A stretch of DNA of 32,912 nt from an uncultured Clostridia bacterium (GTDB lineage: Bacteria; Bacillota; Clostridia; UMGS1883): the NCBI GenBank assembly GCA_947624455.1, contig CANQKL010000003.1:1-32912 (forward strand), in the 5' to 3' direction. Below are positions 2,777-24,131 of this stretch, piece after piece. A program made the position numbers and the translations under genes. Within the stretch, counting starts at the first letter, position 1. Each line of letters begins with the position of its first letter. A model generated the notes under the pieces. It ran no database searches and was not told the origin of the DNA. It worked only from the letters and a program-made list of their open reading frames with translations.

Positions 2777-2814
2777 CAGTCTGCCAATAAATTCGCTATG
2801 TAACCTGGAGGCAC

Positions 2815-3295
2815 GGGGGCTGTCCAAAAAATCGTGCAGAACGGCATCGAAACAAGCGTTGCATCGCTTGTTCTGATTTCTTCAAAATCAGAACAATGGC
2901 TCGCGCCGCTGTTCCTCCTTTTCCCCACAAACAACTTCGTTGTTTGTGGGGCGTTGGCACATAAAACTCGCAAAAGGTTGTTAGTGAGCCAAAGCCGCAG
3001 CGAGGGCCGTTTTAGGCCCGAAGCAGGCGACGCGAACGTGACCTTTTGCGAAAAGGAGGAGCAAGCCTTCGCGCGACGACATTTTTTCGAAAGAAAAAAG
3101 CGTCGGAGCAAAGACAGGCTTTGCTCCGACGCCGCCGAGCGGTGATTTTCGTTCGTAGTCCAAGGGCATAAAATGAGAAAATTCGCTCGTAAGGGCGAAT
3201 TTTCTACATTAATACGTTATTTAATTGACTGCTTACATAATGCTATAATTTACCTTAAACGCCCTTGGACGATCTGCGCCATTTTTTACAGCCCC
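2815..3295. repeat. Hairpin-rich non-coding element with imperfect inverted ends (GGGGGCTGTCCAAAAAATCGTGCAGA ... TCTGCGCCATTTTTTACAGCCCC)
   Basis: Left end 2815-2840 resembles the reverse complement of 3273-3295. The interior holds many perfect stem-loops: AACAAGCG/CGCTTGTT, GTTCTGATTT/AAATCAGAAC, CCCCACAAACAAC/GTTGTTTGTGGGG, GCGTCGGAGCAAAG/CTTTGCTCCGACGC (3100-3132), AGAAAATTCGC/GCGAATTTTCT. A related module lies near 23970-24102 on the other strand. Confidence 0.7.
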
Positions 3296-3322: not shown

Positions 3323-3352
3323 GTATAAAGCCGCTTCCCGCTGTGCATAATA
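3323..3352 (+). promoter_or_regulatory. Putative sigma-G/sigma-F-type promoter of sigG (GTATA-18-CATAATA)
   Basis: GTATA 3323-3327, 18-nt spacer, CATAATA 3346-3352. Resembles the sigma-G consensus; sits just upstream of the RBS AAGGGGG (3361-3367) and ATG 3379. Confidence 0.5.
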
Positions 3353-3378
3353 ATGTCAGCAAGGGGGTATATGTTTTG

Positions 3379-23969: not shown

Positions 23970-24102
23970 CCCGCAAAACGGCGAAGCCGATTTTGTGGGG
24001 AAAAGGAGTCGCAGCGAGGTGAGCTGTGTTTCGATTTTTCAAATCGAAACAAGCGATGCCGAGCTTGCGACGACGCAGATCTGCGCCATTTTTTTACAGC
24101 CC
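23970..24102 (-). repeat. Second copy of the hairpin-rich non-coding module, minus-strand orientation
   Basis: Reverse complement GGGCTGTAAAAAAATGGCGCAGAT...GGCATCGCTTGTTTCGATTTGAAAAATCGAAACA..GCTCACCTCGCTGCGACTCCTTTTCCCCACAAAATCGGCTTCGCCGTTTTGCGGGG aligns with plus-strand 2816-2960. Confidence 0.75.
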
Positions 24103-24131
24103 TGTTCACAATTATTTCAGAATTATACCGA

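Follow-up and report, generated by a model that had tools for sequence, protein, structure and literature searches.

A probable MITE-like repeat with a conserved multi-hairpin fold behind genes of uncultured Clostridia

BOX elements of Streptococcus pneumoniae are MITE-like, modular (boxA-boxB-boxC) and 67-637 bp long, and both the BOX and the SPRITE repeats of the pneumococcus are over-represented between convergent genes (PMC3049150). For REP/BIME sequences, roles in termination and mRNA stability have been put forward as hypotheses (PMC3733652). Ordinary intrinsic terminators also show compensatory evolution (PMC5381666); therefore, covariation by itself is no proof of an RNA function beyond termination. 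The repeat described here, from uncultured Clostridia, is probably a non-autonomous MITE-like element whose single strand folds into conserved multi-hairpins. It appears to insert, or to be kept, behind stop codons at or beside intrinsic terminators, often between convergent genes, with ends and sub-hairpins that are shared and a core that is exchanged.

The window, the whole stretch of DNA that was analysed, comprises 32,912 nucleotides of contig CANQKL010000003.1. All positions are on the + strand unless stated otherwise. The repeat lies between an 83-aa ORF, whose stop codon is at 2725-2727, and sigG. The initial annotation had described an element of 2815-3295 with inverted ends in this interval, and both ends were found, GGGGCTGTCCAAAAAATCGTGCAGA at 2816-2840 and TCTGCGCCATTTTTTACAGCCCC at 3273-3295. 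The start at 2815 had to be moved: the real left end lies about 23 bp further left, at about 2792, and the segment TTCGCTATGTAACCTGGAGGCAC at 2792-2814, conserved in copies from all eight species of the genus, is part of the element. The whole element is thus about 504 bp long (2792-3295), as delimited by the multicopy alignment of long copies (A2) and by the empty site in three species. The 481-bp interval folds to -225.3 kcal/mol on the + strand, compared with -140.6 +/- 6.4 for shuffles (z = -13.3), and on the - strand the fold reaches z = -10.0 against shuffles. The density of perfect stems noted at first is real, although the exact set is slightly different from the 8, 10, 13, 14 and 11 bp that had been listed, the perfect stems being 14, 13, 12, 11, 11, and 10 bp.

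The layout consists of the left segment, a terminal stem, a core, and hairpin B. The left segment (2792-2814) is specific to the genus and unpaired in the consensus fold. The inner-left arm of the terminal stem (2816-2843) pairs with 3270-3295. The core of the long form (2844-3129), to which the window copy belongs, is a set of nested hairpins including CCCCACAAACAAC/GTTGTTTGTGGGG, TCGCAAAAGGT/ACCTTTTGCGA, and GCGTCGGAGCAAAG/CTTTGCTCCGACGC. It is followed at 3130-3159 by the 3' relic (CGCCGCCGAGCGGTGATTTTCGTTCGTAGT) of a widespread hairpin, hairpin A, whose 5' arm has been supplanted by the long core; this module is common to the A1 and A2 alignments. In the window copy the reduced hairpin A is weakly matched, at 3080-3167 (E = 0.0018), by R2, the retrained version of a covariance model (R1) of the short-form hairpin A. 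Hairpin B (3158-3270) is formed by GTCCAAGGGC/GCCCTTGGAC around a terminator-like hairpin AGAAAATTCGC/GCGAATTTTCT (3176-3205). Protein-coding content was ruled out for the element; the frames are not conserved, and the 103-aa frame halts after 15-94 codons in the other long copies.

The interval is multicopy. A BLASTN search of its own genome, which had been proposed as a check, returned 78 matches; some are full-length copies, 86-89% identical, and many others are cut by contig ends. The repeat family is present in 8 of 8 genomes of the genus. The left segment occurs 5-59 times per genome in these eight genomes; with the pattern CTCRCTMTGTAAYNTGGAGGCAC there were 34 occurrences in the own genome, which has about 34 left ends, 50 in the sister genome G002 and 59 in G007, and the reversed control pattern gave 0. 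Exact matches to the left segment among 85,462 species were confined to MAGs of uncultured Clostridia from the 'Lapin' rabbit series, and in a plain sequence search the rest of the family gave no more than traces. The carrier genomes studied are drafts, a good many of them MAGs. With a size of 216-841 bp, no conserved ORF, and dispersed copies that number in the tens in most of the eight genomes, the repeat is short and non-coding in the way of a MITE. The window scan also found a second, partial copy upstream of another gene, at 23970-24103 (start approximate); it combines a right end (24083-24103) with part of the long core in inverted orientation. One copy of the family (L080, 862-1347) is interrupted by a palindromic repeat of another kind (TAAACACTGATTAAA...TTTAATCAGTGTTTA), which seems to be flanked by TTGA on either side, and a repeat similar to this palindrome is found upstream of sigG in G008 (L191).

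The element is mobile at the sigG site. The order 83-aa ORF, terminator, sigG exists without it in three sister species (G002, G006, and G007), and both flanks of the window copy abut in the alignment with these empty sites. Therefore, the empty alleles that the initial annotation suggested looking for do exist, and the element inserted in the lineage of the window. The intrinsic terminator of the 83-aa ORF (2747-2776), conserved at the three empty sites, lies outside the element and was not damaged by the insertion; the element is situated about 15 bp past this intact terminator and not inside it. On the other side, the promoter-like motif of sigG, GTATA...CATAATAATG (3323-3355), is likewise outside the element and intact. 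The motif begins 27 bp past the right end of the element, close to the 28 bp initially estimated, and is kept in an alignment of four species; it resembles a sporulation promoter of sigG. In G002 a copy lies instead on the far side of sigG, where a convergent gene is its other neighbour, and copies are gained or lost between sister species. In G003 (L079) and G002 (L127), elements of opposite orientation stand behind the same stop codon, which amounts to repeated insertion or inversion at a single spot. In the genome G078, many contigs end inside near-identical copies, and recent spread is therefore indicated.

Copies of the family are placed behind genes. By our own codon-based gene calls, the neighbours of 60 copies were convergent in 30 cases, tandem in 30, and divergent in none, compared with 28 divergent ones among 155 comparable intergenic gaps (60 bp or longer) of the retrieved DNA. 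The tandem copies were oriented 17 versus 13 relative to the genes. Of 47 right ends that face a convergent gene, 39 lie at a distance of -1 to 17 nt from its stop codon. The left host flanks are rich in A and the right ones in T; the two flanks were also considered as the halves of a split terminator, an idea that was rejected on account of weak complementarity (-8.0 versus -7.4 +/- 0.32). Sister empty sites carry an intrinsic terminator at three further loci, namely the his locus of G006 (filled as L093 in G002), L150 in G002 (filled as L135 in G007), and L133 in G002 (filled as L070 in G003). As a sequence pattern, terminator-like hairpins, i.e. a hairpin followed by a T-tract, were present on the two strands in 62 and 61 of 62 elements, respectively, compared with 11 and 12 for mononucleotide shuffles. 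The preference for 3' ends could reflect tolerance instead of targeting.

The family comprises two main forms, a short form of about 300 bp, which is the commoner, and a long form of about 510 bp. At one orthologous locus, a copy of 309 bp in G003 corresponds to a copy of 523 bp in G007; therefore, cores are swapped while the ends are retained. The structure is kept by compensatory change, and the check for covariation across copies, proposed at the outset, gave a strong result. The inner-left and right ends are complementary, covarying terminal inverted repeats, as expected of a MITE: they pair as CTG/CAG in 33 copies and as CCG/CGG in 25, with 2 mismatched (Fisher p = 1.3e-14, a value that counts copies as independent although they are related; both end types coexist within one species). 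The terminal-stem arms covary even though they are about 250-450 nt apart. In the alignment of the long form (11 copies), 21 of 136 pairs are compensated over the whole length. The stems of hairpin B undergo wholesale turnover among several unrelated stem sequences. An outer-left repeat, GGGGCTGTAAAAAAA, present in many copies and similar to the 5' arm of a terminator hairpin in other families, was tried as the partner of the right end and discarded, as the p-value for covariation (p = 0.35) indicated none. Overall, the two initial proposals of a non-autonomous mobile element and of a structured element are both correct and describe one and the same thing, which is multicopy, has empty alleles, and covaries; what had not been foreseen is that copies sit behind genes at terminators, that the core is swapped as a module, and that the fold is spread across the class.

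A covariance model was used for distant copies because MAFFT misaligned them. Within the order, R1 matched in 25 of the 28 genomes, with as many as 45 copies in a genome, and R2 in 55 of 391 genomes and 32 of 223 genera sampled from the class, where copy numbers are lower bounds since nine candidates were scored per genome. The relatives retain GTGCAGAACGGACAAACTGA...CCCGAAGGCGTACATAGGTACGYCGAGAGG...GTTCGTAGCAAAAAGGC and a second hairpin, and differ in stem sequences. Among 49 distinct sequences of hairpin A, standard pairs occupied 93.1% of pair cells, compared with 74.6% in shuffled and 32-43% in slid controls, and 26 of 35 pairs had changed on both sides, with similar results in other alignments; fitting these alignments to the model favours structure, and the controls are nonetheless far lower. 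Across families, hairpin A keeps its loop and junction sequences. Closely spaced tandem copies of hairpin A that share end sequences were seen at L226 and L250, which come from other genera of the order.

Distant copies are likewise found behind genes, the calls of the right-hand gene being unreliable owing to flank cutting. In distant families, a terminator-like hairpin occurs just 5' of the copy in 23 of 47 cases, compared with 26 of 184 control windows. A common stem, GGGGCTGTAA...TTACAGCCCC with a T-tract after it, recurs in several of these upstream hairpins and precedes the copies L269, L270, L272, and L277-L280 from unrelated families; this terminator hairpin may belong to the element and not to the host. 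A known structured RNA of Rfam was ruled out, as no curated model matched the window, the short forms, or the relatives: there was no match at the gathering score in the window, and the short forms and relatives gave chance-level matches only.

In the best-supported reading, the element would dock at intrinsic terminators and could itself act as a two-way terminator, as the sequence patterns suggest. A trans-acting enzyme would recognise the folded ends or the terminal stem. The A-tract/T-tract hairpins on both strands would then stop transcription from either side, so that the element may substitute for a displaced terminator and would, as we propose, be tolerated for this reason; such tolerance would account for the persistence at gene ends as well as for the class-wide spread. 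A stronger version is less likely than not: an uncatalogued, class-wide folded mobile family in Clostridia might find terminators by their structure, insert there, and take over two-way termination, perhaps via an intermediate of RNA or single-stranded DNA that is recognised through its conserved hairpin A.

Three other explanations bear on the same evidence. The deep conservation of structure, with invariant or constrained stretches (CCCGA...GTACANAGGTAC..CGAG.GG) across many families and the compensated pairs of hairpin A (26 of 35), would suit a structured RNA under selection, either trans-acting or in a 3'-UTR with a regulatory or protein-binding role, whose dispersal is a by-product of duplication. 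However, the presence of as many as 45 copies per genome, their occurrence in both orientations (17 versus 13 in tandem settings), copies that appear and vanish between sister species, a long form in the window without the 5' arm of hairpin A, and the lack of an Rfam family make this explanation unlikely. The compensatory changes could also stem from replication, if template switching corrected quasi-palindromes in the absence of selection on the fold. Abundant perfect hairpins and the wholesale turnover of the hairpin B stems are in line with such a process, whereas it fits poorly with the conserved loops and junctions of hairpin A and with covariation in a stem whose arms are so far apart, and we give it little probability.

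An equally slim chance is assigned to a relative of retro-elements, whose RNA form would insert behind terminator hairpins in the manner of group IIC introns, which have been reported short distances past intrinsic terminators (PMC3240598). The terminator hairpin and T-tract in front of distant-family copies, the RNA-like fold, and the fact that no target-site duplication stands out (flank pairs did not clearly exceed shuffled ones, z at most 2.4 across the registers tried) are all points in its favour. On the other hand, the Rfam scans gave no group II intron match, and the element has terminal inverted repeats, a typical feature of DNA transposons.

Some points tell against the MITE-like reading as well: the search for a target-site duplication gave no convincing one in any register tried, the window copy stands past an intact terminator, and the candidate partner enzymes that were sought did not match. 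No transposase with element ends was found among PF00872, PF05598, and PF01797 or at 20 right-end loci in four genomes; Transposase_mut (PF00872) and PF05598 were rejected as partners because the ends did not match or the gene was absent. A Y1 transposase was not found in two of the eight species (G003 and G006), and none was flanked by element ends. The window itself contains an ISL3-family transposase ORF (PF01610, PF14690, and PF13542; 4381-5772, - strand) between sigG and the next gene, which was also set aside, the window scan having shown no element ends nearby. A search for carriage of the element by phages or plasmids gave no match. An integron attC site was dropped as a candidate, since the copies stand between host core genes in convergent pairs and not in cassette arrays.

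Many uncultured gut Clostridia have several to dozens of copies of this element where the 3' ends of genes are set. No RNA family library describes it, and the literature covered consists of open-access papers. If terminators are replaced by the element, read-through, antisense transcription, and gene neighbourhoods would be shaped by it. The conserved fold offers a sharp test of how a tiny element can target structure and not sequence, and the copies explain the fragmentation of short-read genomes at such sites.

Among the described systems, BOX is similar in being modular and MITE-like, with terminal repeats paired in the predicted fold, an excess between convergent genes, a position that is sometimes at the extreme 3' end of genes, and size variation at orthologous sites. 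It differs from the window element, whose core family spans many families of Clostridia, is never divergent in 60 cases, and lies very near stop codons and terminators. We know of no sequence relation between the two, and none was found in the Rfam scans. SPRITE repeats are terminator-like, strongly enriched between convergent genes, and near 3' ends (PMC3049150), but each is a single simple hairpin of 18 bp with a U-rich tract, whereas the window family has multiple hairpins in 216-841 bp. REP/BIME sequences with their RAYT (Y1) transposases are palindromic, extragenic, and multicopy as well; membership was rejected, since REPs measure 20-40 bp and the genus studied here has no consistent Y1 transposase. 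Group IIC introns are similarly positioned just past intrinsic terminators (PMC3240598), but the window element has inverted ends, no group II model match, and no intron ORF, and it is too short for an RT ORF, with longest frames that are not conserved, so that this membership was rejected too. Overall, the element may resemble BOX and SPRITE in the way it works and group IIC introns in the way it docks, and by the tests made it is a member of none of these families.
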